Assembly (NCBI RefSeq): GCF_000765215.1
Contig: NZ_JPJE01000018.1
Span: forward strand, 186,001 to 250,000
DNA length: 64,000 nt
Origin: Eubacterium sp. ER2
GTDB lineage: Bacteria; Bacillota; Clostridia; Lachnospirales; Lachnospiraceae
Direction: 5' to 3'
The number at the start of each line of letters is the position of its first letter. Within the stretch, counting starts at the first letter, position 1. Both the position numbers and the translations under genes were made by a program. Of the stretch, positions 47,302-61,440 are shown in pieces. The notes under the pieces were generated by a model. It was not told the origin of the DNA. It made no database searches and was given only the letters and a program-made list of their open reading frames with translations.

Positions 47302-48756
47302 TTACATATTTGTATACCCCATCAGGTACTCATCCACTTCCCTGGCACACGCGCGGCCTTCCGCGATGGCCCAGACTACAAGGGACTGACCCCGGTGCAT
47401 ATCCCCTGCGGCAAACACCTTCTCTGTGTTGGTCTTGTAGGAGGAGGGGGCAGTGGCAGCCACGCCTCTTGGCGTGAGGTCGAGCTGGAAGGCGTCTGAC
47501 ACGTAGGACTCGCATCCGGTAAAGCCTGCCGCGATGAGGAGCAGGTCTGCCTCTAAAATCTGCTCACTGCCCTCTATTTCTGTCATTTTTCCGTCCTTGA
47601 AAGAGAGCTTCACGGTCTTTACTCCGGTGAGCTGATTTTTGTCGTCTGTCAGGAACTCCTTGATGGTAGTCTCATAGATCCGGGGATCGTGGCCAAAGCA
47701 GAAGATGGCCTCCTCCTGTCCGTAATCGGTCTTGCAGACCTTGGGCCACTCCGGCCAGGGGTTGGATGGCGTGCGCTCATCCGGGGCCTTGGGCATCATC
47801 TCAATCTGCGTGACGGAGGCACAGCCCTGGCGGATACAGGTACCCACGCAGTCATTTCCGGTGTCTCCGCCGCCCACGATGATGACCTTTTTATCCTTTG
47901 CGGATACCCAGGGGGTACCGTCCAGCAGATGCTTTGTGGCCCTTGTGAGGAAGTCCACGGCAAAATAGATGCCCTCCGCCTGGCGGCCCTCACCGTTTAA
48001 GTCCCTGGCTCTCTTGGAGCCGCAGCACAGGATCACAGCGTCATACTCCTCTAGCAGCTTCTGGGCCGGGATGTCAGCGCCGATATTGGCGCCGGTCACA
48101 AACTCGATGCCCTCCGCGGTCATCAGATCCACCCGGCGCTGTACGATGGATTTGTCCAGCTTCATGTTGGGGATACCGTACATGAGAAGGCCTCCCACGC
48201 GGTCCTCCCTCTCAAAAACAGTCACATGGTGGCCTCTCTGGTTGAGCTGGTCTGCGGCTGCCAGGCCGGCGGGACCGGCCCCAACTACGGCCACCTTCTT
48301 TTCCGTGCGCACAGCCGGGATCCGGGGCTTCATATTTCCCTCGGCAAAGCCGGTCTCTATGATGAAGAGCTCATTGTCGCGGATGGTCACCGGATCGTCG
48401 TTCATGCCGCAGACACAGGCTTTTTCACACAGCGCAGGGCAGACCCTCCCGGTAAATTCCGGAAAGCTGCTCGTCTTGCGCAGACGGGAGAGTGCCTGGG
48501 AGTAGTTTCCGTGAAACACCTCGTCGTTCCACTCCGGGATCAGATTGTGGAGCGGGCAGCCTGTCACCATGCCCTTCAGCTGCAGTGCAGACTGGCAGAA
48601 GGGGACGCCGCAGTTCATGCATCGGGCCCCCTGGATCCTTCTTTCCTCAGGGGAAAGAGGGGGGTGAAATTCATTGAAATTCCTGATGCGCTCCTCCGGA
48701 GCACAGGACGAATTATCCATTCTTTTATATTCTAAAAAACCAGTTGGTTTTCCCAT
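47302..48756 (-). CDS. gltD: Glutamate synthase small subunit
   Basis: 484-aa flavoprotein of NADPH-GOGAT; passes electrons to GltB. N-terminal cysteine clusters for 4Fe-4S centres (CMNCGVPFC, CPLHN, CPALCEKAC), FAD site GAGPAGLAAADQL and NADPH site GGGDTGNDCVG are intact. AAAGGAGGAAG precedes the ATG on the reverse strand. It is the last gene of the GSIII-asnB-gltB-gltD operon, 21 bases after gltB. Confidence 0.96.
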   Translation of the reverse strand: MGKPTGFLEYKRMDNSSCAPEERIRNFNEFHPPLSPEERRIQGARCMNCGVPFCQSALQLKGMVTGCPLHNLIPEWNDEVFHGNYSQALSRLRKTSSFPEFTGRVCPALCEKACVCGMNDDPVTIRDNELFIIETGFAEGNMKPRIPAVRTEKKVAVVGAGPAGLAAADQLNQRGHHVTVFEREDRVGGLLMYGIPNMKLDKSIVQRRVDLMTAEGIEFVTGANIGADIPAQKLLEEYDAVILCCGSKRARDLNGEGRQAEGIYFAVDFLTRATKHLLDGTPWVSAKDKKVIIVGGGDTGNDCVGTCIRQGCASVTQIEMMPKAPDERTPSNPWPEWPKVCKTDYGQEEAIFCFGHDPRIYETTIKEFLTDDKNQLTGVKTVKLSFKDGKMTEIEGSEQILEADLLLIAAGFTGCESYVSDAFQLDLTPRGVAATAPSSYKTNTEKVFAAGDMHRGQSLVVWAIAEGRACAREVDEYLMGYTNM

Positions 48757-48777: not shown

Positions 48778-51700
48778 CTATTTCTGGATCTCGTAAAATG
48801 CTTCAAGCGCCGCGTCTTCATGGGAGAGACCCTTCTCTTCGTACTTGCTGATGGCGTGGAGCATGCGCTGGTAATCGTTGGGAAGGATCTTCTTAAATCC
48901 CGGCAGATAATCTCCGAAATGCTCCAGGATATCCTTTGCGAGAGCGGAAGAGGTCTCCTTCTCGTAATCCTTCAGTATATTTTTCAGCTCGGCAATGTCG
49001 TGCTTTTCCGTCACCTCAGACATGGTCACCATATCCTTGTTCAGCTTTTTGTAGAGCTGATGATCCATATCCAGCACATAGGCTGTGCCGCCGCTCATGC
49101 CTGCGGCAAAGTTTTTGCCGGTTTTTCCAAGGATGACCGCGCAGCCTCCTGTCATGTATTCCAGCCCGTGGTCACCGCAGCCCTCGGCCACCGCTGTGGC
49201 GCCGGAGTTGCGGACGCAGAAGCGCTCGCCGGCCACGCCGCAGACATAGGCTTTTCCTGATGTGGCGCCGTAGAGGGCCACGTTTCCGATGATGATGTTT
49301 TCAGAGGCCTTAAAAGTGCTGTGTCTGGACGGATACACGATCAGCTTTCCGCCTGACAGGCCCTTGCCGAAGTAGTCGTTGGCGTCTCCCTCCAGCGTCA
49401 GGGTCAGACCCTTGGGGATAAAGGCGCCGAAGGACTGGCCGCCGCCTCCGGTGCAGTGTACCTTAAAGGTGTCGTCCTTGAGTGTGTTCTTGAAGGCGGC
49501 TGTGATCTCGGATCCCAGGATGGTTCCCACAGAGCGGTTCACGCTGTTCACGCGGATGCTCTCGCTGTGCTTCCTGCCGCTCTTCAGAGCCTTCTCAAAG
49601 CGGGGCAGGAGAATGGCCTCGTCCACGGTCTTCTCCAGCTCAAAGTCAAAGACATCCTCCGGGTTGAAGTGGACCGCGCTGCCCTCCGGTGCGGAGCAGA
49701 GGATCCTTGAGAGGTCTACCTTTTTCGCCCTAGGGATACTGCAGTTCTCACGAACCTTCAGGCATTCCGTGTGTCCCACCATCTCGGAGAGTGTGCGGAA
49801 GCCAAGCTTTGCCATGATCTCCCGCAGCTCCTGGGCCATGAAGAGCATGAAGTTCATGACGTACTCCGGTTTGCCCTTAAAGCGCTTGCGTAAGGCTTCA
49901 TTCTGGGTGGCAACGCCCACAGGGCAGGTGTCCAGGTTGCAGACCCGCATCATCATGCAGCCCATGGTCACAAGGGGAGCAGTGGCAAAGCCGAACTCCT
50001 CAGCTCCCAGAAGGGCGGCGATGGCCACATCCCGGCCGCTCATGAGCTTGCCGTCCGTCTCGATGACCACACGGCTCCTCAGGTGGTTCTGTATCAGCGT
50101 CTGGTGTGTCTCAGCAAGGCCCAGCTCCCAGGGAAGCCCCGCGTGATGGATAGAGCTCTGGGGCGCGGCTCCTGTTCCTCCGTCGTAGCCGGAGATGAGC
50201 ACCACCTGGGCGCCCGCCTTGGCCACGCCTGAGGCGATGGTCCCGACACCCGCCTCGGACACAAGCTTCACCGCGATCCGGGCCTTCCTGTTGGCGTTCT
50301 TCAGGTCGTAGATGAGCTGCGCCAGGTCCTCGATGGAGTAGATGTCGTGGTGAGGCGGAGGGGAGATGAGGGATACACCGGGGGTGGAGTAGCGTGTCTT
50401 CGCGATCCAGGGGTATACCTTTTTCCCGGGCAGGTGTCCGCCTTCTCCGGGCTTTGCGCCCTGGGCCATCTTGATCTGGATCTCCTTTGCGCTCACCAGA
50501 TACTCGCTGGTGACGCCAAACCGGCCGGAGGCCACCTGCTTGATGGCGCTGTTCTTCTCTGTGCCCAGGCGCTCCGGCTTCTCGCCGCCCTCGCCTGAGT
50601 TGGACTTGCCTCCCAGACGGTTCATAGCGATAGCCATACACTCGTGGGCCTCCTCAGAGATGGAGCCGTAGGACATGGCCCCTGTCTTAAAGTGCTTGAC
50701 GATCTCAGAGGCGGGCTCCACCTCGTCGATGGGGATGCCCCCGTCCTCCGGGAACTGGAAGGAGAGGAGCCCCCGCAGGGTGTGGGGACGGGTCTCGTCG
50801 TCCACCATGGCTGTATATTCCTTAAATCTCTCATAGTCGCCGTTCTGTGTGGACTGCTGGAGGGCGATGATGGTGGCCGGATTGTAGAGGTGGTCCTCCT
50901 TGTCCCCGCCGCTCCGAAGCCGGTGGAAGCCGGTGCTGTCCAGGGTAGTGTCCACACCCAGGTCCAGTGGGTCGAAGGCCTTGTTGTGGCGGGCGATCAC
51001 GTCGTCATTGATATCCTTCATGCCGATGCCGCCCACCCGGCTGACTGTGTTGGTAAAATACTTGTCTATGACCTCCCTGCTGATGCCCACAGCCTCGAAG
51101 ATCTGGGCAGACTGATAGGACTGGAGGGTGGAAATACCCATCTTGGCCGCGATCTTTACGATACCGTGGAGCACAGCCTCGTTGTAGTCGTGGATGGCTG
51201 TGTGGTAGTCTTTATCCAGGATACCCCTGTCTATGAGCTCGGAGATGCACTCGTGAGCCAGATAGGGATTGACAGCCCTGGCGCCGTAGCCAAGGATGGC
51301 GGCGAACTGGTGCACGTCCCTGGGCTCGCCGCTCTCCAGGATGATGGAGACAGCGGTCCTCTTCTTTGTACGGATCAGGTGCTGCTCCATGGCGGAGACA
51401 GCCAGGAGGGAGGGGATGGCCACATGGTTCTCATCCACGCCCCGGTCGGAGAGGATGATGATGTTGGCCCCCTTCGTGTAGGCCCGGTCGCAGCTGACAA
51501 AGAGCTGGTCCAGCGCCTTCTCAAGAGAGGTATTCTTGAAGTAGAGAAGGGAGACCACGGCGCTCTTAAAGCCCGGGCGGTCCAGGGACTTGATCTTCAT
51601 CATGTCCACACCGGTGAGGATGGGGTTCTTCACCTCCAGCACAGTACAGTTGCCGCTCGCCTCCTCCAGCAGGTTTCCGTCTGAGCCGATGTACACCGTG

Positions 51701-53298
51701 GTGTCTGTGACGATCTCCTCCCGGAGAGAGTCGATAGGCGGGTTGGTCACCTGAGCAAAGAGCTGTTTAAAATAGTGGGAGAGAGGCGGATGCTTCTCCG
51801 ACAGCACAGCCAGGGGAATGTCGGTCCCCATGGAGGCTGTGGCCTCGGACCCGTTTGTCGCCATGGGAAGGAGCACATCCTTCACGTCCTCGTAGGTGTA
51901 GCCGAAGACCTTGTAGAGCTGGTCCCTTCTCACCTGGCTGTGGACCGGCACCTTCTTGTTGGGGACCGGGATGTCCTTTAAGTAGAGCAGGTTCAGGTCC
52001 AGCCATTCGCCGTAGGGCTGGCGGGTGGAGTAGTACTCCTTGCACTCCTCGTCAGAGATCAGCTTTTTCTTCTTCGTGTCCACGAGGAGGATCTTTCCCG
52101 GCTGCAGCCTGGATTTCTCCACCACGTGCTCCGCCGGGAGATCCAGCACGCCCACCTCGGAGGAGAGGATGAGGTGCCGGTCGTCTGTGATGTAGTACCT
52201 GGAGGGACGAAGTCCGTTCCGGTCCAGCACAGCGCCCAGGATATCTCCGTCTGAGAAGAGGATGGCCGCAGGGCCGTCCCAGGGCTCCATCATGGTGGCG
52301 TAGTAGTGGTAGAAATCTTTTTTCTTCTCATCCATGTACCGGTCATGCCTCCAGGGCTCCGGGATGGTGATCATGACGGCCAGGGGAAGGTCCATACCGT
52401 TCATGTAGAGGAACTCCAGGGTGTTGTCCAGCATGGCGGAGTCAGAGCCGCTGCTGCCGATGACCGGGAGTACCTTGTCGATGTCGTCTGAGATGACAGA
52501 AGAGTGCATGGTCTCCTCCCTGGCCAGCATGCGGTCCGCGTTGCCCCGGATGGTGTTGATCTCCCCGTTGTGGAGGATCAGGCGGTTGGGGTGAGCCCTC
52601 TCCCAGCTGGGTGTCGTGTTGGTGGAGAAGCGGGAGTGGACCATGGCGATGGCCGTGCGATAGTCCGTATCCTGCAGGTCGTCGTAGAACCGGCGGAGCT
52701 GTCCCACAAGGAACATGCCCTTGTACACGATGGTGCGGGAGGAGAGGGAGGCCACGTAGGTGTCCTCGCAGCTCTGCTCGAACTCTCTTCTGGCGATGTA
52801 GAGACGGCGGTCAAAGTCGATGCCCTTCGGGCAGTCCGCTGGCCTCTCCACAAAGCACTGCATGATGTAGGGCATGCGCTCTCTGGCGTAGTCTCCCAGT
52901 ATCTCCGGGTGGACCGGCACCTTTCTCCAGCCAAGCAGTCTAAGGCCGCTTTTTTCCAGAATGACCTCAAACATTTTCCGGGAAAAATTCCGCTTCAGTG
53001 TGTCCTGGGGGAAGAAGAACATGCCTACGCCATAATCCCTCTCATCTCCCAGGGAAATGCCTGCCTGTGCGGCGGCTTTGGAAAAAAATGAGTGGGAAAT
53101 CTGCGTCAGGATCCCCACTCCGTCACCAACCTGTCCAGTGGCGTCTTTGCCTGCGCGGTGTTCCAGTTTTTCTACGATCGTAAGGGCGTCGTCCAGAATT
53201 TTGTATTCCTTTACGCCGTCGATACTGACAACAGCTCCGATGCCGCAGGCATCGTGCTCAAAACTGCTCTGATATAAAGTTTGATTTTCTTGGTTCAT
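48778..53298 (-). CDS. gltB: Glutamate synthase large subunit
   Basis: 1506-aa GOGAT alpha subunit; transfers the amide of glutamine to 2-oxoglutarate. A short propeptide is expected to be cleaved before Cys18 (HDACGIG), the glutaminase nucleophile. The central domain, the FMN-binding synthase domain (PGEGGHLPGKKV; GYDGGTGAAPQSS) with its 3Fe-4S cysteines (CNLDTCPVGVATQ) and the GXGXG C-terminal domain are all visible. The ATG at 53298 was chosen because AAAGGAG is upstream; the longer frame runs into asnB. It lies 34 bases after asnB. Confidence 0.96.
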   Translation of the reverse strand: MNQENQTLYQSSFEHDACGIGAVVSIDGVKEYKILDDALTIVEKLEHRAGKDATGQVGDGVGILTQISHSFFSKAAAQAGISLGDERDYGVGMFFFPQDTLKRNFSRKMFEVILEKSGLRLLGWRKVPVHPEILGDYARERMPYIMQCFVERPADCPKGIDFDRRLYIARREFEQSCEDTYVASLSSRTIVYKGMFLVGQLRRFYDDLQDTDYRTAIAMVHSRFSTNTTPSWERAHPNRLILHNGEINTIRGNADRMLAREETMHSSVISDDIDKVLPVIGSSGSDSAMLDNTLEFLYMNGMDLPLAVMITIPEPWRHDRYMDEKKKDFYHYYATMMEPWDGPAAILFSDGDILGAVLDRNGLRPSRYYITDDRHLILSSEVGVLDLPAEHVVEKSRLQPGKILLVDTKKKKLISDEECKEYYSTRQPYGEWLDLNLLYLKDIPVPNKKVPVHSQVRRDQLYKVFGYTYEDVKDVLLPMATNGSEATASMGTDIPLAVLSEKHPPLSHYFKQLFAQVTNPPIDSLREEIVTDTTVYIGSDGNLLEEASGNCTVLEVKNPILTGVDMMKIKSLDRPGFKSAVVSLLYFKNTSLEKALDQLFVSCDRAYTKGANIIILSDRGVDENHVAIPSLLAVSAMEQHLIRTKKRTAVSIILESGEPRDVHQFAAILGYGARAVNPYLAHECISELIDRGILDKDYHTAIHDYNEAVLHGIVKIAAKMGISTLQSYQSAQIFEAVGISREVIDKYFTNTVSRVGGIGMKDINDDVIARHNKAFDPLDLGVDTTLDSTGFHRLRSGGDKEDHLYNPATIIALQQSTQNGDYERFKEYTAMVDDETRPHTLRGLLSFQFPEDGGIPIDEVEPASEIVKHFKTGAMSYGSISEEAHECMAIAMNRLGGKSNSGEGGEKPERLGTEKNSAIKQVASGRFGVTSEYLVSAKEIQIKMAQGAKPGEGGHLPGKKVYPWIAKTRYSTPGVSLISPPPHHDIYSIEDLAQLIYDLKNANRKARIAVKLVSEAGVGTIASGVAKAGAQVVLISGYDGGTGAAPQSSIHHAGLPWELGLAETHQTLIQNHLRSRVVIETDGKLMSGRDVAIAALLGAEEFGFATAPLVTMGCMMMRVCNLDTCPVGVATQNEALRKRFKGKPEYVMNFMLFMAQELREIMAKLGFRTLSEMVGHTECLKVRENCSIPRAKKVDLSRILCSAPEGSAVHFNPEDVFDFELEKTVDEAILLPRFEKALKSGRKHSESIRVNSVNRSVGTILGSEITAAFKNTLKDDTFKVHCTGGGGQSFGAFIPKGLTLTLEGDANDYFGKGLSGGKLIVYPSRHSTFKASENIIIGNVALYGATSGKAYVCGVAGERFCVRNSGATAVAEGCGDHGLEYMTGGCAVILGKTGKNFAAGMSGGTAYVLDMDHQLYKKLNKDMVTMSEVTEKHDIAELKNILKDYEKETSSALAKDILEHFGDYLPGFKKILPNDYQRMLHAISKYEEKGLSHEDAALEAFYEIQK

Positions 53299-53332
53299 AT
53301 AGAAAACTCCTTTCGTGTTGCGGCGCTTTTGT

Positions 53333-54913
53333 CTAAACGCCGCTTGCTCCGTAGTTGGAGAGTACTCTTGCGGAAGGATCATCCACATCGCAGCCCTCCC
53401 ACTCTTTGTTGGGCATCCAGAAGTCCGTGATCATCTCAGACTGTCCGGGATAGTACTTCTCAAAGATCTCCCGGTACAGGAGGGACTCCTTTGTGAATGG
53501 AGCTGCATGTGTATATTGTTTCCGCTTTTCTTCAAATTCTTCATCGGAATAGCAGCCCTCTGCGTATTCCTTCAGATAATCCACCATGGAGTGGCCCACT
53601 GCGTCGGAGAAGGCCGCCTTCTCGCGCATCAGGATGTCGTAGGGAAGATAGTCGCCCTCAAAGGCGTGGCGGAGAAGATATTTTCCCTTGCCATAGATGT
53701 TCATCTTCTTTGCCGGGTCCACGCTCATGACGTAGGAGACAAAATCTAGATCGCCGAAGGGAACCCGGGCCTCCATGGAGTTCACGCTGATACACCGGTC
53801 AGCCCGGAGCACATCGTACATGTGGAGCTCGTGGACTCTCTTGACAGACTCTTTTTGGAAGGCCTCCGGTGAGGGGGCGAAGTCTGTATATTTGTAGCCG
53901 AAGAGCTCGTCTGAGATCTCTCCGGTCATGAGGACCCGCACATCTGTCTTCTCGTGGATGGCCCTGCAGAGAAGGTACATGCCCATGGAAGCGCGGATGG
54001 TAGTGATGTCAAATGTGCCGAGAGCTTTGATGACATCCGGCAGGGCATGAAGCACATCCTCCTTTGTGATGATGACCTCTGTGTGGTCGCTGCCGATATA
54101 GTCCGCCACTTCCTTTGCGTACTTTAAGTCAATGGCGTCCTCGCTCATGCCGATGGCAAAAGTGCGGATGGGGCGGCCAAGGATGCGGGCTGACACAGCG
54201 CACACGAGAGAGGAGTCCAGGCCTCCGCTTAAGAGGAAGCCAAGGGGAGCGTCCGCGTCCAGTCTCTTGCGGATGCCTTCCACCAGCTTGTCGTGGATGT
54301 TCCTGCAGACCTCCTCCGTGTCATCCGTACAGACAGAGGAAACCGCAGTGATATCGCGGTAGCAGATGAATTCCCCGTCCTTATAGTAATGTCCGGGCGG
54401 GAAGGGCATGATCTTATCGGTCAGTCCCACCAGATTCTTGGCCTCGCTTGCGAAAATAGCGGCGCCGTCTTTGTCATAGCCATAGTAGAGAGGGCGGATC
54501 CCAATGGGGTCCCTTGCCGCTATGTATGATCTCGTGTCGCCGTCAAAGAGGATGAGAGCGTACTCTGCATCCAGCATGCCAAACATGTTTGTCCCGTATT
54601 CCTTGTAGAGGGGGAGAAGGATTTCGCAGTCGCAGTCACTCTTAAAGGTATAGCCTTTCTCCTCCAGCTTTTTTTTCATTTTTCTGAAGCCATATATTTC
54701 TCCGTTGCATACAAGGGTATGACCGCAAAGGGAGAAGGGCTGCATCCCTTCTCCTGTAAGTCCCATGATCGCAAGTCTGTGAAAACCGAGAAGGCCGAAG
54801 CCGGTATCGATGATCCGGCTGTCGTCCGGTCCTCTCGAGATGGTGCGGTCAAATCCCTCCTTGAATAGATCGTGATCGGCACTGGGTGAACAGTACCCCA
54901 TGATTGAACACAT
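53333..54913 (-). CDS. asnB: Asparagine synthase (glutamine-hydrolysing)
   Basis: 526-aa AsnB. The nucleophile is Cys2 (MCSIMGY). The N-terminal glutaminase has NGEIYG and SDCDCEILLPLY. The synthetase domain has the pyrophosphate loop LLSGGLDSSL and later GEISDELFGYKY. Its position between GSIII and gltB ties asparagine formation to the same glutamine supply. GGAGG precedes the ATG. There is a 45-base gap after GSIII with no terminator. Confidence 0.94.
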   Translation of the reverse strand: MCSIMGYCSPSADHDLFKEGFDRTISRGPDDSRIIDTGFGLLGFHRLAIMGLTGEGMQPFSLCGHTLVCNGEIYGFRKMKKKLEEKGYTFKSDCDCEILLPLYKEYGTNMFGMLDAEYALILFDGDTRSYIAARDPIGIRPLYYGYDKDGAAIFASEAKNLVGLTDKIMPFPPGHYYKDGEFICYRDITAVSSVCTDDTEEVCRNIHDKLVEGIRKRLDADAPLGFLLSGGLDSSLVCAVSARILGRPIRTFAIGMSEDAIDLKYAKEVADYIGSDHTEVIITKEDVLHALPDVIKALGTFDITTIRASMGMYLLCRAIHEKTDVRVLMTGEISDELFGYKYTDFAPSPEAFQKESVKRVHELHMYDVLRADRCISVNSMEARVPFGDLDFVSYVMSVDPAKKMNIYGKGKYLLRHAFEGDYLPYDILMREKAAFSDAVGHSMVDYLKEYAEGCYSDEEFEEKRKQYTHAAPFTKESLLYREIFEKYYPGQSEMITDFWMPNKEWEGCDVDDPSARVLSNYGASGV

Positions 54914-54958: not shown

Positions 54959-57052
54959 CTAGATGATGCCAAAGAGCAGCTTTCCGTAAGTCGGGAATGG
55001 CCATACAGATGTGTCTGTCATGGTCTCCAGCAGATCCACGTCGCCGCGGAGGGCGTCCATGGCCGGGATGACCATATCTCTGTAGTAGAAGGCCTCCTTC
55101 TCGAAATCGGAAATGGTTCCTGCCTCGCTGACAACCCTCTTCAATGTCTCCAGCTTCTCGTAGGCGGAAGCAGTGAGAGAGGAGATCTTCTTGACTGTGC
55201 TGTATTCATAGGATGTGTCGATCTCAGCTCCGAGAGAGCGCTTTGCGAGTACAGTATCCGTGAGTGAGTGTGCGTATCCACTGACTGCCGGGAGGATATC
55301 CCGCTCAGCCATCTCGGCCATGGTCAGGGCCTCGATGTGCAGCACCTTCACGTAATTTTCCATCATGATCTCATAGCGGGACTGCATTTCTTCCTCGCTG
55401 AACACCTTGTGGGAGGTGAACAGCTTCACGTTTTTCTCGTGGAGGAAGCAGGGCAGTGCATCCGGCGTGGTGCGCAGGTTCAGAAGACCTCTCTTTTCGG
55501 CCTCCTCAAGCCATGCGTCGTCGTAGCCGTTTCCGTTGAAGATGATCCGCTTGTGGTCCCGGATCGTATCCCGTATCAGGTCGTGGAGGGCGGTCTCGAA
55601 ATCGTCCGCGCTCTCCAGGATGTCGGCGAACTGCTTCAGCTCTTCTGCCACCGCTGTGTTCAGGATCACGTTGGGGCCTGAGATGGAAGCGGAGGAGCCC
55701 AGCATACGGAACTCAAATTTATTTCCGGTAAAGGCAAAGGGTGATGTCCTGTTCCGGTCTGTGGAGTCCTTGGGGAACTTGGGAAGAACGTGTACGCCGA
55801 CACGCATCAGCTCTTTTTCCTTTCCGTCGTAGGACTCTTCGTTTTCAATGGCCTTGAGGATTTCGGTCAGCTCATCGCCCAGGAACATGGAGATGACTGC
55901 CGGCGGCGCCTCGTTGGCGCCCAGTCTGTGGTCGTTTCCGGCTGAAGCGGCGGACAGGCGCAGGAGATCCTGGTACTCATCTACAGCCTTGATGACCGCG
56001 CAGAGGAAGAGGAGGAACTGAGCGTTCTCGGAGGGCGTGTCGCCGGGCTCAAGGAGATTGATGCCGGTGTCCGTGGAGATAGACCAGTTGTTGTGCTTGC
56101 CGCTTCCGTTGATGCCTTCAAAGGGCTTCTCGTGGAGAAGGCAGACAAGGTCGTGCTTCTTGGCGATCCGCTGCATCAGCTCCATCATCAGCTGGTTGTG
56201 GTCTGTGGCAATGTTGGTAGTGGTGAAGATGGGCGCCAGCTCGTGCTGTGCGGGAGCCACCTCGTTGTGTTCTGTCTTGGCCAGGATTCCCAGCTTCCAG
56301 AGTTCTTCATTGAGTTCCTTCATATATGCCTGGACGCGGGATTTGATGGTGCCGAAGTAGTGGTCCTCCAGTTCCTGGCCCTTGGGAGCGGATGCTCCGA
56401 AGAGGGTCCTGCCGGTGTAGATCAGGTCTTTTCTTTCCTCATAATACTTTTTATCTACCAGGAAATATTCCTGCTCCGGGCCTACCGTTGTCTTTACGGA
56501 TTTTACATCCTCATTTCCGAAGAGGTGCACAACCCGGAGGGCCTGGCGGTTGATGGCCTGCATGCTCCGCAAAAGAGGCGTTTTCTTGTCGAGCGCGTGG
56601 CCGCTGTAGGAGCAGAAGGCCGTGGGAATGCACAGGACACCGTTCTTGATGAAGGCGTAGGCTGTGGGGTCCCAGGCTGTGTATCCTCTGGCCTCAAAGG
56701 TGGCCCGAAGTCCTCCCGACGGGAAGGAGGAGGCGTCCGGTTCACCCTGCACCAGCTCTTTGCCGGAAAATTCCATGATGACTTTTCCGTCCACATCCGG
56801 GCTGATGAAGCTGTCGTGCTTTTCCGCTGTTATGCCTGTCATGGGCTGGAACCAGTGGGTGTAGTGTGTGACTCCCTTTTCAATCGCCCAGTCTTTCATG
56901 GCGTTGGCGACTACGTTGGCAATATTTATGTCCAGGCTCCTTCCGTCTTTCATTGTACGCTGAAGCTGCTTGAAGGTCTCCTTTGGAAGGCGTTCCTTCA
57001 TGACAGACTCATCAAAAACCATTGAACCAAATTTTTCTGCTGCTGTACTCAT
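54959..57052 (-). CDS. glnN: Glutamine synthetase type III
   Basis: 697-aa GSIII; makes glutamine from glutamate, ammonia and ATP as a dodecamer. GSIII motifs are visible: [20 protein letters not shown] near the start, [28 protein letters not shown], and [18 protein letters not shown]. The ATG at 57052 was chosen because AAAAGGAG is 10 bases upstream; the longer frame runs through the leader. First gene of the reverse-strand operon; its ~215-base leader contains two terminators (see control region). Confidence 0.95.
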
Positions 57053-57123
57053 GACTCTCAAACTCCTTTTCATTTTTATTTGGATTTGATGTGTGCGGCC
57101 CAGGCCGCAAGGATAAAATAAAT

Positions 57124-57198
57124 AAAAAAGAGCGGCAGTGGAACTCCTCCATCCCGATATGGCCATTTCTCAGGGTGGAAAAGCGACTCCATTGCCGC
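57124..57198 (-). terminator. GSIII leader terminator 2 (proximal to the gene)
   Basis: On the reverse strand GCGGCA (57198-57193) pairs with TGCCGC (57137-57132). An inner TGGA/TCCA extends it past one mismatch, and CTTTTTT follows. The large loop contains a second stem (TCCACCC with GGG-TGGA). Confidence 0.72.
57183..57198 (-). promoter_or_regulatory. Putative ANTAR-target hairpin, GSIII site 2
   Basis: GCGGC-AATGGA-GTCGC on the reverse strand: 5-bp stem and a hexaloop with A1 and G4. It overlaps the 5' arm of leader terminator 2, so the two folds exclude each other. Confidence 0.6.
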
Positions 57199-57212
57199 GT
57201 ACACAAAGTAAA

Positions 57213-57258
57213 AGAAAAAACGGCGCGCAGAAAAAAGGGGTATTCCTGCGACGCCGTT
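57213..57258 (-). terminator. GSIII leader terminator 1 (promoter-proximal)
   Basis: On the reverse strand AACGGCG (57258-57252) pairs with CGCCGTT (57225-57219), extended by GCAG/CTGC, and followed by a T-run. Confidence 0.8.
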
Positions 57259-57262
57259 GCCG
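57249..57262 (-). promoter_or_regulatory. Putative ANTAR-target hairpin, GSIII site 1
   Basis: CGGC-AACGGC-GTCG on the reverse strand: 4-bp stem, hexaloop with A1 and G4. It overlaps the 5' arm of leader terminator 1. AAAGAA lies directly upstream (57268-57263), near the predicted transcription start. Confidence 0.6.
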
Positions 57263-57275
57263 TTCTTTGCATATG

Positions 57276-57304
57276 ACTATACTGCCGTGATAAAGATTTG
57301 TCAA
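57276..57304 (-). promoter_or_regulatory. Sigma-A promoter for GSIII-asnB-gltB-gltD
   Basis: Reverse strand: perfect TTGACA (57304-57299), 17 bases, TATAGT (57281-57276). Confidence 0.78.
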
Positions 57305-57356
57305 ATGTTTTCTTGTATTTATTTTCGTACAATCCGCCCGGCCGGCCCGACAGAAG

Positions 57357-57385
57357 TTGACACAGAAAAGGAAATCCGCTATATT
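57357..57385 (+). promoter_or_regulatory. Sigma-A promoter for glnA-ANTAR
   Basis: Perfect TTGACA (57357-57362), 17 bases, TATATT (57380-57385). Confidence 0.78.
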
Positions 57386-57404
57386 TTCTACTGTAAAGAA
57401 TAGT

Positions 57405-57418
57405 GGGCAAAGGCGTTC
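57405..57418 (+). promoter_or_regulatory. Putative ANTAR-target hairpin, glnA site
   Basis: GGGC-AAAGGC-GTTC: a weak 4-bp stem (two G-T pairs) and a hexaloop with A1 and G4. It overlaps the 5' arm of the glnA leader terminator. An upstream AAAGAA (57395-57400) also fits the A1/G4 loop rule and could form a first hairpin with a poor stem. Confidence 0.55.
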
Positions 57419-57479
57419 ATCTGAGGCAGGGAAAGTTTTCGCGGCTGTGAGAGCTTTCTCTTTCAGAAGACGCCTTTTT
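57410..57479 (+). terminator. glnA leader terminator (attenuator)
   Basis: AAGGCGT (57410-57416) pairs with ACGCCTT (57470-57476); inner TCTGA/TCAGA and GAAAG/CTTTC stems lie within; the T-run ends at 57479. It lies in the leader, 33 bases before the glnA start, so it would block glnA unless antiterminated. Confidence 0.78.
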
Positions 57480-57512
57480 ATCATATATTAAGATGTAAGA
57501 GGAGGTAAGAAT

Positions 57513-58739
57513 ATGGACATGTATCAATATGAAAAGGTCATGACATTTGTGGATGAGGAGGATGTAAAATTCATCCGTCTGGCCTTTTTTGACGCCTTTG
57601 GCGTGCAGAAAAATATTTCCATCATGTCAGGCCAGCTGGAGAGGGCCTTCAAGGAGGGGATCTCTTTCGACGCGTCGGCTGTGGCCGGATTTGACAGTGA
57701 GGTGAAGAGCGACCTCTTTCTCCACCCGGATCCGTCCACCTTTTCTATTCTGCCGTGGCGTCCGTCCACAGGGCGGGTGGCCAGGATGTACTGCGACATC
57801 CGCTATCCGGACGGGACGATCTACGAGAAAGACAGCCGCTATATATTAAAGAAGGCAGTGGAGAAGGCAAGGGAAAAGGGACTGAAGATCGATTTCGGGA
57901 CAGAGGTGGAGTTCTACCTCTTTAATACAGACGAGCAGGGCAGCCCGACCAAGATCCCCTTTGACATGGCCGGATACATGGATGTGGCCCCGGAGGACAA
58001 GGGGGAGAACATTCGCAGGGAGATCTGTTTCACCCTTATTGATATGGGTATTGAGCCGGAGGCTTCTCACCACGAGGAGGGGCCCGGCCAGAATGAGATC
58101 GACTTCCAGTACAGTGATCCCCTCACAGCGGCGGACAACACGGCCACCTTCAAGTGGGTGGTGAGCACAGCGGCCATGGGGAACGGCCTTTACGCCGACT
58201 TCTCTCCAAAGCCCATCAAGGAATATGCGGGAAACGGCATGCATATCAATATGTCAGTGAGATGTGAGGACGGGTCGGACTGCAACGGCCAGTTCATGAC
58301 AGGCATCCTGGAGCACATAAGGGACATTACCCTGTTTTTAAATCCATCCGAGGATTCCTACAGGAGGCTGGGTGAGAAGAAGGCTCCCAAGTATGTGACC
58401 TGGTCCCCGGAGAACCGCTCCCAGCTGATCCGGATCCCGGCGGTGAAGAACAAAAGGAAGCGGATCGAGCTTCGCTCCCCTGACCCCACGGCCAATCCCT
58501 ATCTGGCCTTCGCCCTCCTCATCTACGCCGGGATGGACGGCATCGAGAGAAAGCTGCCCCTCCAGAAGCCGGCCAATGTCAATCTGTACACGGCGGACCA
58601 CAAGGTGACGGATCAGCTCAGGAAGCTGCCGGAGAGCCGCGGGGAGGCCTGGGATGCGGCGACTGCAAGCGCCCTGGTAAAGAAGGTGCTGCCAGAGGCT
58701 TATCTGGACGTTTACAAGAACCCGCCGAAGACACGCTGA
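57513..58739 (+). CDS. glnA: Glutamine synthetase type I-like protein
   Basis: 408-aa GSI-family protein, about 30-40 residues shorter than usual. Metal and substrate residues that can be matched by eye are kept: EVEFYLF, HHEEGPGQNE, GNGMH, NRSQLIRIP, and KRIELRSPDPTANPYLAF. Differences: the loop that normally reads GYEAP reads EKKAP, so the flap Glu directly before Ala-Pro is Lys. The second His of the GMHxH motif is Asn. A segment after that motif is missing. It may be a functional short GS, a GS acting on another amine, or a sensor. AGAGGAGG precedes the ATG. The ANTAR regulator follows 37 bases later. Confidence 0.85.
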   Translation: MDMYQYEKVMTFVDEEDVKFIRLAFFDAFGVQKNISIMSGQLERAFKEGISFDASAVAGFDSEVKSDLFLHPDPSTFSILPWRPSTGRVARMYCDIRYPDGTIYEKDSRYILKKAVEKAREKGLKIDFGTEVEFYLFNTDEQGSPTKIPFDMAGYMDVAPEDKGENIRREICFTLIDMGIEPEASHHEEGPGQNEIDFQYSDPLTAADNTATFKWVVSTAAMGNGLYADFSPKPIKEYAGNGMHINMSVRCEDGSDCNGQFMTGILEHIRDITLFLNPSEDSYRRLGEKKAPKYVTWSPENRSQLIRIPAVKNKRKRIELRSPDPTANPYLAFALLIYAGMDGIERKLPLQKPANVNLYTADHKVTDQLRKLPESRGEAWDAATASALVKKVLPEAYLDVYKNPPKTR

Positions 58740-58776: not shown

Positions 58777-59358
58777 ATGACAGCAGAAAAAGAGGCATAC
58801 CGCATCCTGGTGGCTTCTGCGTCAGACAAGATGGTCTCAGTTGTAAGGGATGTGCTCCCGGGCCCCCAGTACAGGGATATTTCCTACGTGTCCACCATGG
58901 GGGACGCCAAGCGTATGCTGGTCAGCCATATCTGTGATATTCTCATCATCAACACGCCGCTGAAGGACGACTTCGGCATACAGTCCGCTATCGATATAGC
59001 GGAGCAGCACGAGACGGGAATTCTCCTGCTGGTCAAAGCGGAGATGTACGAGCAGGTGTCCTCCCAGGTGGAGGACTACGGCATCGTCACCCTGGCCAGG
59101 CCCACCACAAGGCAGAGCCTCTACGCGTCCGTGAAGATGCTCAGCGCTGTCCAGATGAAGATAAAGAAGCTGGAGAAGGATATGCGCAGGCTGAAGGAGC
59201 GGATGCAGGAGCAGCAGACCATTGACAGGGCCAAGTGGATTCTGGTGGACCAGAGGAAGATGAGCGAGCCGGACGCCCACAGGTACATAGAGAAATCAGC
59301 CATGGACCGGTGCGTCAGGAAGATCCGCATTGCGGAGGAGATTTTGAGAGACAGCTGA
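58777..59358 (+). CDS. ANTAR-domain antitermination regulator with degenerate receiver
   Basis: 193-aa protein. Residues ~8-115 form a receiver-like domain, but the phosphoacceptor position is Asn59 (DILIINTPL) and the conserved Lys-Pro is Arg-Pro, so phosphorylation is unlikely. A coiled coil (~118-145) leads to a C-terminal ANTAR domain (~147-190; AKWILVDQRKMSEPDAHRYI, then MDRCVRKIRIAEEIL), an RNA-binding fold that prevents terminators from forming. The ATG at 58777 follows AAAGGAG by about 11 bases; the GTG at 58765 is an alternative. In operon with glnA. Likely targets are the three leader hairpins in the divergent control region (inference). Confidence 0.88.
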   Translation: MTAEKEAYRILVASASDKMVSVVRDVLPGPQYRDISYVSTMGDAKRMLVSHICDILIINTPLKDDFGIQSAIDIAEQHETGILLLVKAEMYEQVSSQVEDYGIVTLARPTTRQSLYASVKMLSAVQMKIKKLEKDMRRLKERMQEQQTIDRAKWILVDQRKMSEPDAHRYIEKSAMDRCVRKIRIAEEILRDS

Positions 59359-59467: not shown

Positions 59468-60535
59468 ATGCGAAGATATTGGTACAGACGAATTTTGATC
59501 ATGATCCTTGTGTTCACCATCTCTGTAGGAGGGAGCTGGTATCTGATCGAGGAGAACAGAGCCGGCCTGGAGAGAGAGGCAAGCGCGGACGCGTCCGGGG
59601 AGCTCCTGATCCCCGGCGGCATGCCGGTGGGCATCTATCTGGAGACAAAAGGGGCCATGGTCCTGGGAACTGAGAAGATCCAGGGCGAGGACGGGCAGGA
59701 GTATGAGCCCGCCGCCAACCTGGTGCAGGAGGGCGACTACATCATCGGGCTGGACGGGGAGGAGATCGACAACAAGTCCCAGCTCGTGGAGGCAGTGGCG
59801 GCACTGGACAAGGAGGAGGTCGTGCTGAAGGTGCGCCGGGATGGCCAGGAGATCGCCATCCGCATGAAAGCTGTGCGGTGCGGAAGGGATGAGTACAAGC
59901 TGGGGATCTGGGTGCGGGACAATGCCCAGGGCCTGGGGACTGTCACCTTTCTAAACGCGGACAGCCAGTTCGGAGCTCTCGGGCACGGGATCCGGGACAC
60001 AGATACCGGAAAGCTCTTAAGCGCTTCGGACGGCCTTCTCTACACAACCAGCATCAAGGACATCAAGAAGGGGAAGGATGGGACGCCGGGGGGCATGGAG
60101 GGCGTCATTATCTATAACAATTACAATATCCTGGGGACCATCACCCAGAACACGGAGGACGGCATATACGGCACCCTGGACAGGATCGACGCTCTCTTCA
60201 CGGATACGCAGCCCCTGGAGGCGGCTGTGGATGAGAGCCAGATAGAGGAGGGGGAGGCTACCATCCGATGCGCGGTCAGCGGCCAGGTGGAGGATTACAG
60301 CATTCGTATTACAAAAGTTGACAGGAACGCCCAGGAAGCGAACAAAGAGATTTTGCTGGAGGTGACGGACGAGAAGCTGCTGGAGCTCACCGGCGGCATC
60401 GTCCAGGGCATGAGCGGCAGCCCCATTATCCAGAACAGACGGCTCATCGGGGCAGTGACCCACGTGTTCGTGAACAACCCGAAGGAGGGCTACGCCATTT
60501 TTGTCCAGGATATGTTGAAACATATCGAAAGGTAA
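59468..60535 (+). CDS. spoIVB: SpoIVB peptidase
   Basis: 355-aa forespore serine peptidase (family S55) secreted into the intermembrane space to trigger pro-sigma-K processing. N-terminal membrane anchor (~8-27), PDZ domain (~60-140), then the peptidase: His in ALGHGI (~172) and the catalytic Ser in GMSGSPI (~316). GGAG precedes the ATG. It is followed by spo0A as in Bacillus, but recN is not next to it on the other side. Confidence 0.94.
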   Translation: MRRYWYRRILIMILVFTISVGGSWYLIEENRAGLEREASADASGELLIPGGMPVGIYLETKGAMVLGTEKIQGEDGQEYEPAANLVQEGDYIIGLDGEEIDNKSQLVEAVAALDKEEVVLKVRRDGQEIAIRMKAVRCGRDEYKLGIWVRDNAQGLGTVTFLNADSQFGALGHGIRDTDTGKLLSASDGLLYTTSIKDIKKGKDGTPGGMEGVIIYNNYNILGTITQNTEDGIYGTLDRIDALFTDTQPLEAAVDESQIEEGEATIRCAVSGQVEDYSIRITKVDRNAQEANKEILLEVTDEKLLELTGGIVQGMSGSPIIQNRRLIGAVTHVFVNNPKEGYAIFVQDMLKHIER

Positions 60536-60551
60536 GAAAACAGGAAGAAGG

Positions 60552-60558
60552 TGTCGAG
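60552..60558 (+). promoter_or_regulatory. 0A-box-like element upstream of spo0A
   Basis: TGTCGAG differs in one base from the Spo0A-binding consensus (TGTCGAA). It lies 20 bases upstream of the -35 box and may allow autoregulation. Confidence 0.4.
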
Positions 60559-60577
60559 ATCTTCCGACTTCAAAACC

Positions 60578-60606
60578 TTGATTTCGCATTTTTGTAATTC
60601 TATAAT
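60578..60606 (+). promoter_or_regulatory. Sigma-A promoter for spo0A
   Basis: TTGATT (60578-60583), 17 bases, perfect TATAAT (60601-60606). An inverted repeat CTTGA/TCAAG (60611-60627) lies over the predicted start site. Confidence 0.72.
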
Positions 60607-60648
60607 TTTCCTTGACAGTTTTTCAAGAACAGATAGGAGGATTATGGA

Positions 60649-61440
60649 ATGGGAGAGATTCGTGTAGCAATCGCCGACGACAATGAGAGAATTCTGGAGC
60701 TGCTTGGCGAAATCATCAGCAGCGACAAGGATTTAAGTCTGGTGGGAAAGGCGGACAACGGTGAGGATATGTGCCGCGTGATCCGGGAGAAGGAGCCGGA
60801 TGTTGTCCTGCTCGATCTGATCATGCCTAAAATGGACGGACTGGGAGTGATGGACGCCGTCAACCATGACAAAACTTTGAAAAAGCGCCCGTATTTTATC
60901 ATAGTGACAGCTGTGGGCCAGGAGAGGATCACGGAGGACGCCTTCAACAAGGGAGCCATGTACTATGTCATGAAGCCCTTTAAAAATGACGTCATCCTGG
61001 AGCGGATCAAGCAGGTCACTCAGAAGGGGAGGACAAGCTATATCCCTGGCACGGATCTGTCCCAGCAGGGCGGCGAAACGCAGGAGCAAAGCCTGGAGAC
61101 GAGAGTGACAGACATGATCCACGAGATTGGTATTCCCGCCCACATCAAGGGGTATCATTACCTGCGGGACGCTATCATGATGGCCGTGGAGGACATGGAC
61201 GTGCTGAACGCGGTGACCAAGGTGCTGTACCCCACAGTCGCCAAGCGCCACCAGACGACGGCCAGCCGGGTGGAGCGGGCTATCCGCCACGCCATTGAGG
61301 TGGCATGGAGCCGAGGGAAGCTGGACACACTGGATGAGCTCTTCGGATACACTGTGAGCAACGGCAAGGGAAAGCCCACAAACTCAGAGTTTATCGCCCT
61401 TATTGCGGACACCCTCCGCCTGGAATATAAAAACAGATAA
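60649..61440 (+). CDS. spo0A: Sporulation master regulator Spo0A
   Basis: 263-aa response regulator. The receiver domain (~5-125) has acidic residues DDN (10-12), the phosphoacceptor Asp56 (LLDLIMP) and the MKPF Lys. The C-terminal DNA-binding domain carries the recognition sequence [18 protein letters not shown], almost invariant in Spo0A. AGGAGG is 8 bases before the ATG at 60649. Confidence 0.97.

Follow-up and report, generated by a model that had tools for sequence, protein, structure and literature searches.

The locus lies in the genome of Eubacterium sp. ER2 (3.27 Mb in 74 contigs, 99.9% complete), which is Lachnospiraceae-like and near Claveliimonas. The window is the whole stretch of 64,000 nucleotides that we analysed, and within it two operons diverge from the intergenic region 57053-57512. 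Leftward run the genes for a type III glutamine synthetase (GSIII), asnB, gltB and gltD; rightward run a glutamine synthetase (GS)-like glnA gene and an ANTAR gene, the latter being the second gene of the operon adjoining the leaders. No other ANTAR gene was found in the genome, and the nearest named relatives of the encoded protein are in C. monacensis and Lachnoclostridium sp. An118, at 91% identity each. The gene clusters with glutamine synthetase and glutamate synthase genes, as NitR-type genes do by a definition drawn in part from the account in PMC6316151. A GSIII start at 57166 is replaced, on the genus alignment, by a conserved ATG at 57052 that is preceded by AAAAGGAG. Beyond the ANTAR operon, at 59468-61440, are a PDZ-protease-like gene (SpoIVB-like by eye) and then spo0A. 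The features of the two operons and their leaders are:

47302..48756, minus strand: gltD, glutamate synthase small subunit
48778..53388, minus strand: gltB, glutamate synthase large subunit; true start probably a little downstream of 53388
53333..54913, minus strand: asnB, asparagine synthase B
54959..57052, minus strand: GSIII gene, start corrected to 57052
57122..57198, minus strand: terminator 2 of the GSIII leader (arms 57198-57132, then T-run)
57183..57198, minus strand: P2b hairpin GCGGC-AATGGA-GTCGC, second (tandem) putative ANTAR target of the GSIII leader
57213..57258, minus strand: terminator 1 of the GSIII leader (arms 57258-57219, then T-run; its 5' arm opens with the P2a loop)
57249..57262, minus strand: P2a hairpin CGGC-AACGGC-GTCG, first putative ANTAR target of the GSIII leader
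57276..57304, minus strand: GSIII operon promoter TTGACA-17-TATAGT, kept in all six genus members aligned
57357..57385, plus strand: glnA-like operon promoter TTGACA-17-TATATT
57390..57404, plus strand: possible P1-like hairpin ACTGT-AAAGA-ATAGT with a five-base loop, at the predicted glnA transcript start
57405..57418, plus strand: P2 hairpin GGGC-AAAGGC-GTTC, putative ANTAR target of the glnA leader (extends GTGGGC/GTTCAT, 57403-57420)
57409..57479, plus strand: terminator of the glnA leader (arms 57409-57477, with T-run)
57513..58739, plus strand: GS-like glnA gene, 408 aa (flap Glu changed to Lys; candidate sensor partner)
58777..59358, plus strand: ANTAR antiterminator gene (pseudo-receiver and ANTAR domain; alternative GTG start 58765)

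The original prediction placed three hairpins here with a hexaloop that has A at position 1 and G at position 4 (A1/G4), each overlapping the 5' arm of a terminator. All three are found where it put them, and in 3/3 the loop and the 3' side of the hairpin are common to a strong terminator with a T-run; each P2 hairpin and its terminator are mutually exclusive. In the definition of an ANTAR target that PMC3369931 sets out, the hexaloop carries A1 and G4, as it does at all three sites and in the modules of the wider locus set, and P2 overlaps an intrinsic terminator, as it does here. The terminators fold at -39.6 kcal/mol (z -4.5) in the glnA leader and at -24.2 (z -4.3) and -35.0 (z -4.2) for terminators 1 and 2 of the GSIII leader, and for each of the three 0/200 shuffles fold as well. 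The P2 hairpins are weak alone, with -4.3 kcal/mol for glnA, -3.6 for P2a and -7.3 for P2b; shuffles fold at least as well in 27/200, 112/200 and 10/200 cases, respectively. None of the three leader terminators is listed by a simple terminator scan, probably because it does not allow for loops and bulges of their size, and the window has no Rfam match at gathering thresholds.

The intergenic region was aligned with five other members of the genus (G159, G153, G152, G150 and G151). The promoters are kept throughout, as are the CAAAGG or CAATGG loop and the terminator of the glnA leader. The comparison of leaders for compensatory changes, proposed together with the original prediction, finds one in the terminator stem of the glnA leader: a C-to-T change in G150/G151 is matched by a G-to-A change, which gives the pairing GGTG...TACC against the GGCG...CGCC type in the window. 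In the GSIII leader, P2a, P2b and both terminators are kept in G159, G153 and G152, and G150/G151 have CGGC-AAAGGC-GCTG with a different terminator instead.

These elements can be combined into a mechanism. Each of the two divergent promoters is closely trailed by one or more attenuators, each with a single AANGGN hairpin closed by C-G, and the P2 loop and 3' arm would double as the 5' arm of the terminator, which would win by default. Free ANTAR protein would bind the hexaloop hairpin as it emerges from the polymerase and block the folding of the terminator. Readthrough into the GS-like/ANTAR operon would then pass one module, with autoregulation, while readthrough into the GSIII-asnB-gltB-gltD operon would pass two modules in series. 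Very probably it is the RNA-binding protein of the adjoining gene that holds the hairpin and lets the message continue. For the recruitment hairpin, P1, there would be no room ahead of the first GSIII module, and possibly one stands at the 5' end of the glnA leader. Binding, antitermination, the start sites and a switch to the on state when nitrogen is limiting, the direction reported for NitR, are all predicted.

The ANTAR domain of the protein itself (PF03861) is clear, with 64.3 bits against a cut-off of 27.3. Solved relatives found for it are 1s8n (a putative antiterminator, which we take to be Rv1626), AmiR and 6wsh (presumably EutV). The receiver is without the phospho-acceptor Asp and the acidic pocket and in this departs from a response regulator; it reads DILIINTPL and ILVASASD, against MDINLPG and IAEDE in the protein of L144. 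In an alignment of a subset of ANTAR proteins, an Asp at the phospho-acceptor position is found only in L009 and L011 among the GS-linked members. The RNA contacts of EutV, Tyr164, Met172, Lys147, Lys143 and Arg142, correspond to His, Met, Arg, Gln and Gln in our protein. The Met172 counterpart is kept in the GS-linked proteins aligned, and all but that of L073 have His at the position of Tyr164, as does AmiR.

In 77 loci, many of them one place fetched twice, the gene that immediately precedes the ANTAR gene is a GS, and this is so in nearly all loci with enough flank. Exceptions are L005, where the ANTAR gene faces GSIII without a GS between them, L031, where the next gene upstream is a GSIII on the opposite strand, and the different ANTAR genes of L077, L078 and L093; L032 and L036 are flagged only for overlapping or split frames, and L007, L034 and L035 are cut. 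The ANTAR gene of L031 has a module of its own in its leader (GATAAAC-AAAGGC-GTTTATT, near 404, plus strand). We read the linked GS proteins with residue roles and B. subtilis numbering that we presume to apply at these positions. On that reading our GS-like protein still has its presumed metal ligands but carries Lys in place of the flap Glu and is altered in the RIEESD region, and in this it departs from a type I enzyme with its catalytic flap Glu and metal ligands; for TIGR00653 it scores 353 bits, below the cut-off of 429. After 65 linked GS were collapsed to 49 by shared 5-mers, the flap Glu is kept in 12/49, at least one presumed metal ligand is lost in 14/49, one or the other is changed in 42/49, and 7/49 are intact at all positions checked. 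Several metal ligands are lost in some orthologues, losses being seen in L016, L019, L020 and L056. By length and score, each of the 39 genomes checked also has at least one GSIII-type gene, so glutamine supply need not depend on the linked GS.

The altered linked GS, the presence of GSIII elsewhere and the pseudo-receiver together lead us to hypothesize a role for the GS-like protein as glutamine sensor and as the partner that sequesters the ANTAR protein, by analogy with AmiC-AmiR and NasS-NasT. AmiR is an ANTAR antiterminator with a pseudo-receiver that is controlled by its partner AmiC, as PMC8934654 describes, and NasT is released from NasS on nitrate or nitrite in the account of PMC3795266. 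The partners in those systems are ligand-binding proteins of other families, whereas the neighbour here, a putative partner, is GS-like. A precedent for a glutamine synthetase in such a role is found in Bacillus subtilis, where according to PMC6316151 the enzyme binds and holds the nitrogen regulator TnrA; TnrA is DNA-binding and its GS fully active, whereas by hypothesis an RNA-binding regulator is paired here with an altered GS.

The alternative is that the linked GS is a plain enzyme, a glutamine synthetase or another gamma-glutamyl ligase, and that the ANTAR protein is controlled by PII, a small molecule or its own abundance. We give this about an even chance. The presumed metal ligands kept in our protein, the seven intact linked GS and the ANTAR genes of L005 and L031 that have no GS directly upstream all fit a plain enzyme; the changes at the flap Glu or a metal ligand in 42/49, with at least one metal ligand gone in 14/49, do not, and neither do the GSIII-type genes in every genome checked, the receiver without a phospho-acceptor and the precedent of AmiR and NasT, ANTAR proteins that partner proteins hold (in the accounts of PMC8934654 and PMC3795266).

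For the RNA elements, a module was defined as an AANGGN loop on a stem of at least 4 bp with a terminator of at least 9 bp, and a promoter was counted when its -10 box ends 3-45 nt upstream. The scan covers 81 loci with 424,379 bases (424 kb), some still near-identical, after setting apart repeated places, EutV-like loci, L094-L128 (pattern loci of the own genome) and loci truncated before the leader. It finds 77 modules, 51 of them with a promoter. The control loops TTNCCN, AANCCN, GGNAAN and CANGAN give 5, 5, 7 and 5 modules with 0, 0, 1 and 0 promoters, other A1/G4 loops give 80 and 7, and dinucleotide shuffles average 8.7 and 0.33. In a scan of GS-ANTAR leaders with crudely set gene starts, 34/90 have a module. 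A looser module scan was too noisy and was set aside, and the look-alike modules at L131, L132 (behind a SpoVG-like gene by eye) and L134 are without support.

Is P1 present in these leaders? The original prediction had named AAAGAA, near both predicted starts, as the only candidate. On the glnA side it has support, as a P1-like hairpin lies at the predicted start in three of the six species: ACTGT-AAAGA-ATAGT in the window, where RNAfold folds ACUGU-AAAGA-AUAGU (57390-57404), CTGT-AAGGAT-ATGG in G159 and ACTGT-AATGAC-ATAGT in G153. The hairpin is missing in G152, G150 and, by alignment, G151. The GSIII side of the proposal does not hold: AAAGAA precedes P2a in four genus members, with ATAGAA in G150/G151, there is no stem, fewer than 12 nt lie between the predicted starts and the hairpin, and the P2a stem begins 13 nt past the -10 box, with no room for P1. 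The opposite view, that P1 is absent from every leader, was dropped on account of the P1-like hairpin in the glnA leader of three species.

Room for P1 was judged from the earliest start, set at the fifth base after the -10 box, with 3 bp and six loop bases as the minimum hairpin. In 39/51 promoter modules, the GSIII leader among them, fewer than 12 nt precede the inner 4-bp P2 core, so that a P1 hairpin cannot fit. An upstream A1/G4 hairpin by a lax definition (loop 5-7) is found in 3 of the 12 modules with room, where 0.64 are expected from shuffled leaders; these are the glnA leaders of the window and G159 and the module of L134, whose downstream gene is a LysR-type regulator by eye and not a nitrogen gene (G153 is outside the 51 because its promoter is too far from P2). 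A strict scan (hexaloop, linker 1-20 nt), whose limits exclude the glnA-leader hairpins of the window and G153, gives a P1 candidate at 5/77 modules, none of them a nitrogen leader with room. On the eut locus L179, taken as a control, the strict scan gives P1 at 2/3 real modules, and the third has by eye a P1-like hairpin with a GATGAT loop. The two-hairpin arrangement in the target definition of PMC3369931 is thus found neither at the GSIII leader nor in the wider set.

The alternative that bears on these results is that we are dealing with classical dual-hairpin targets, which in the glnA leader at least would have and require a P1, at 57390-57404 or at the hexaloop counterparts of the relatives. 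P1 is required in vivo in EutV, the best-studied ANTAR system, as reported in PMC3369931; the hairpins of the window, G159 and G153 stand in the same place and all have A1 and G4, and AAAGAA is there before P2a in four GSIII leaders. Even so, we regard this alternative as improbable. A P1 in the glnA transcript would require initiation about 5 nt past the -10 box. Between it and P2 lie 0 nt in the window, 1 nt in G159 and about 57 nt in G153, yet EutV tolerates little change of this linker, lengths of 3 or 14 nt having sharply cut induction in the experiments that PMC3369931 describes. The missing glnA hairpin in G152 and G150, the stemless AAAGAA of the GSIII leaders (ATAGAA in G150/G151), the 39/51 modules without room and the low yield of the strict scan also tell against it. 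From the predicted promoters, the GSIII leader and most modules cannot have a P1, and P1 is probably no general requirement here, given a GSIII side that lacks both stem and room, as do 39/51 promoter modules. In this lineage a genuine P1 may persist in the glnA leader, which in G153 (L081) carries, relative to the window, an extra stretch of some 57 nt between the P1-like hairpin and P2.

If the leaders were ordinary terminators or attenuators unrelated to ANTAR, the hexaloops would be by-products of terminator arms, and the 5' arm of P2, which lies outside the terminator, would have no reason to pair. In a register test, candidates were picked ignoring this arm, which avoids circularity, and 46 were reduced to 34 distinct ones by identical 24-mers. 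The arm pairs over at least 4 bp in register in 29/34, and at shifts of -3, -2, -1, +1, +2 and +3 in 0, 0, 0, 0, 1 and 0 of 34. Among those 29, the inner four pairs are formed in 29/29 with 1, 3, 3 and 3 pair types, the closing pair is C-G in 29/29, the sixth loop base is C in 24, and the distance from the end of the -10 box to the stem is 4-25 nt (median 10). The weakness of the P2 hairpins alone and a look-alike at L129, between an aldolase-like gene and a second GSIII gene, whose hairpin is not kept in G152 and G153, do suit ordinary terminators; in view of the in-register pairing with covariation, the promoter spacing and the association with ANTAR genes and nitrogen genes, we think them very unlikely to be the explanation. 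It is likewise highly improbable that a repressor or activator recognizes the AANGG element as DNA, or that another RNA factor controls the leader, for although the element abuts the promoter as operators often do, its stem varies with pairing kept and its loop is fixed, which points to RNA, and no Rfam family is matched.

The distribution of the module was followed with a class pattern (TTGACA, CAANGGNG and a T-run at module spacing) in 245 Clostridia genomes. It matches 71/245, with 118 matches (some sites counted twice) against 19 for the reversed control. ANTAR genes are present in 124/245; pattern and ANTAR occur together in 57 genomes, the pattern only in 14, ANTAR only in 67 and neither in 107, so that 57/71 pattern genomes have ANTAR against 67/174 of the others (odds ratio 6.5, p = 1.7e-9, kinship ignored). 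One matched string was checked in each of the 14 pattern genomes without ANTAR, and 10 of these strings are without a stem or a -10 box. A protein search of the four with clear modules (G222, G226, G394 and G418) gives no convincing ANTAR gene (best E 0.14); they may have missing contigs, a divergent regulator or another reader.

We read 31 of the 118 matches (in 30 loci) closely: a stem of 3 bp or more is present in 26 and a -10 box in 24. Behind these 24 modules, 16 proteins are nitrogen or glutamine genes by scan (amt x3, PII, GS x2, GSIII x2, glutamate synthase-type GATase x2, asnA x2, gdhA, argD, guaA and purC), five more are asnA, GS or GSIII by eye (L242, L246, L247+, L253 and L257), and three, at L233, L240 and L256, have no nitrogen assignment. 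At L240 (G349:C1:4227169-4227253) a single-hexaloop module with a promoter lies about 640 nt upstream of eutA, in an operon class known for dual hairpins. Elsewhere gdhA is found behind modules in L008 (Pfam) and, by eye, in L009, L011, L017 and L020, and further modules precede asnB (L026, by eye) and pyrG (L032). The modules before pyrG (L032), purC (L232) and guaA (L244) suggest that nucleotide synthesis is within the nitrogen regulon of some species. For GSIII, of which 69 genes of this type are listed, 14/40 scanned leaders have a module, with a promoter close upstream in seven; the GSIII leader of L206 has the variant loop AACGAC.

That ANTAR antitermination controls both divergent operons, as originally predicted, is strongly supported by comparison: by the sole ANTAR gene, the compensatory terminator change within the genus, the motif excess, the register pairing and the co-occurrence with ANTAR. 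Taken as a whole, antitermination by mostly single-hexaloop attenuators is in our judgement the best explanation, and we hold it with good confidence on these comparisons of sequence. Weighing on the other side are the P1-like hairpin in three glnA leaders, the four genomes with clear modules in which no ANTAR gene is found, the 67 ANTAR genomes that do not show the strict pattern, the many GS-ANTAR and GSIII leaders in which no module is detected, the need of EutV for P1 and the long-gap pattern of the own genome, which does no better than its reversed control. The system would then be one case of a promoter-abutting, mostly single-hexaloop nitrogen regulon in many Clostridia. We put forward a wider reading only tentatively: a P1-free, promoter-abutting class of ANTAR RNAs would govern nitrogen assimilation in many Clostridia and be read by a pseudo-receiver protein, with the GS homologue of the same operon, drifted from catalysis, as the sensor that binds glutamine and holds the antiterminator at nitrogen plenty.

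How does this compare with known systems? Control of GS/GOGAT by NitR is already known: this ANTAR protein of Clostridium saccharobutylicum is said to induce GS/GOGAT by antitermination on nitrogen limitation (Stutz et al. 2007, via PMC6316151). Our locus resembles that account in having an ANTAR protein with GS/GOGAT genes and predicted antitermination. It differs in its apparent single-hairpin target, of which the passages on NitR in PMC6316151 give none, in a linked GS that is non-canonical and in a predicted target set that includes GSIII and asnB. With EutV and the eut genes of E. faecalis it shares, as far as PMC3369931 and PMC8934654 describe them, the A1/G4 hexaloop, a P2 that overlaps the 5' arm of the terminator, several copies per regulon and nitrogen-related genes. 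In contrast to the EutV targets, a P1 would not fit in the GSIII leader or in those of most relatives, and the loop keeps to a narrower form, AANGG(C), on a closing C-G pair; unlike EutV, which is phosphorylated, the protein has a pseudo-receiver and His for Tyr164.

The promoter-abutting, mostly P1-free architecture predicted here is a variant of the known dual-hairpin target, and it agrees with the minimal ANTAR target as redefined in 2022, in the paper on the EutV-RNA structure, to one hexaloop (PMC8934654). The authors there supposed that single-hexaloop sites occur where no transcribing polymerase sets a time limit, and they call for more bioinformatics and experiments on the role of such sites. 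The locus and its relatives offer a large set of apparent single-hexaloop sites that stand under this time limit, and for that reason the dispensability of P1 becomes directly testable, with the glnA and GSIII leaders as a natural pair with and without a P1-like hairpin. The modules outline a nitrogen regulon for gut Clostridia, to which the GS homologue is a possible signal input. A literature search, which covered few subscription journals and is weak evidence of novelty, found among the papers listed neither a promoter-abutting single-hexaloop ANTAR class nor a GS-like ANTAR partner.

In the genome itself only the two divergent operons count as secure targets. Another is probable at L130 (G000:C55:800-2600), where on the minus strand near 568 TTGACA-17-TATACT, a weak 3-bp AAAGGT hairpin and a strong terminator precede an argD-like aminotransferase gene, since the argD gene of G272 has the same arrangement. 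The candidate at the second GSIII gene (L129, G000:C56:45400-48800) was rejected: the hairpin closing is lost and the terminator kept in G153 and G152, there is no clear promoter, and the terminator is taken as belonging to the preceding aldolase-like gene (aldolase by eye). L188, L191 and L192 among the 14 flagged GSIII leaders are this same site in relatives. Own-genome patterns with a long gap match 2 times against 3 for the reversed control, and those with a short gap 78 times against 29, 12 of the matches being copies of one repeat; short-gap matches were followed only where hairpin and terminator are present. The repeat is a 42-base terminator-like stretch, CAAAGGTGGTGCTGGAGCC..., that recurs identically at 12 places on several contigs, often near contig ends, and is probably a repeated element.
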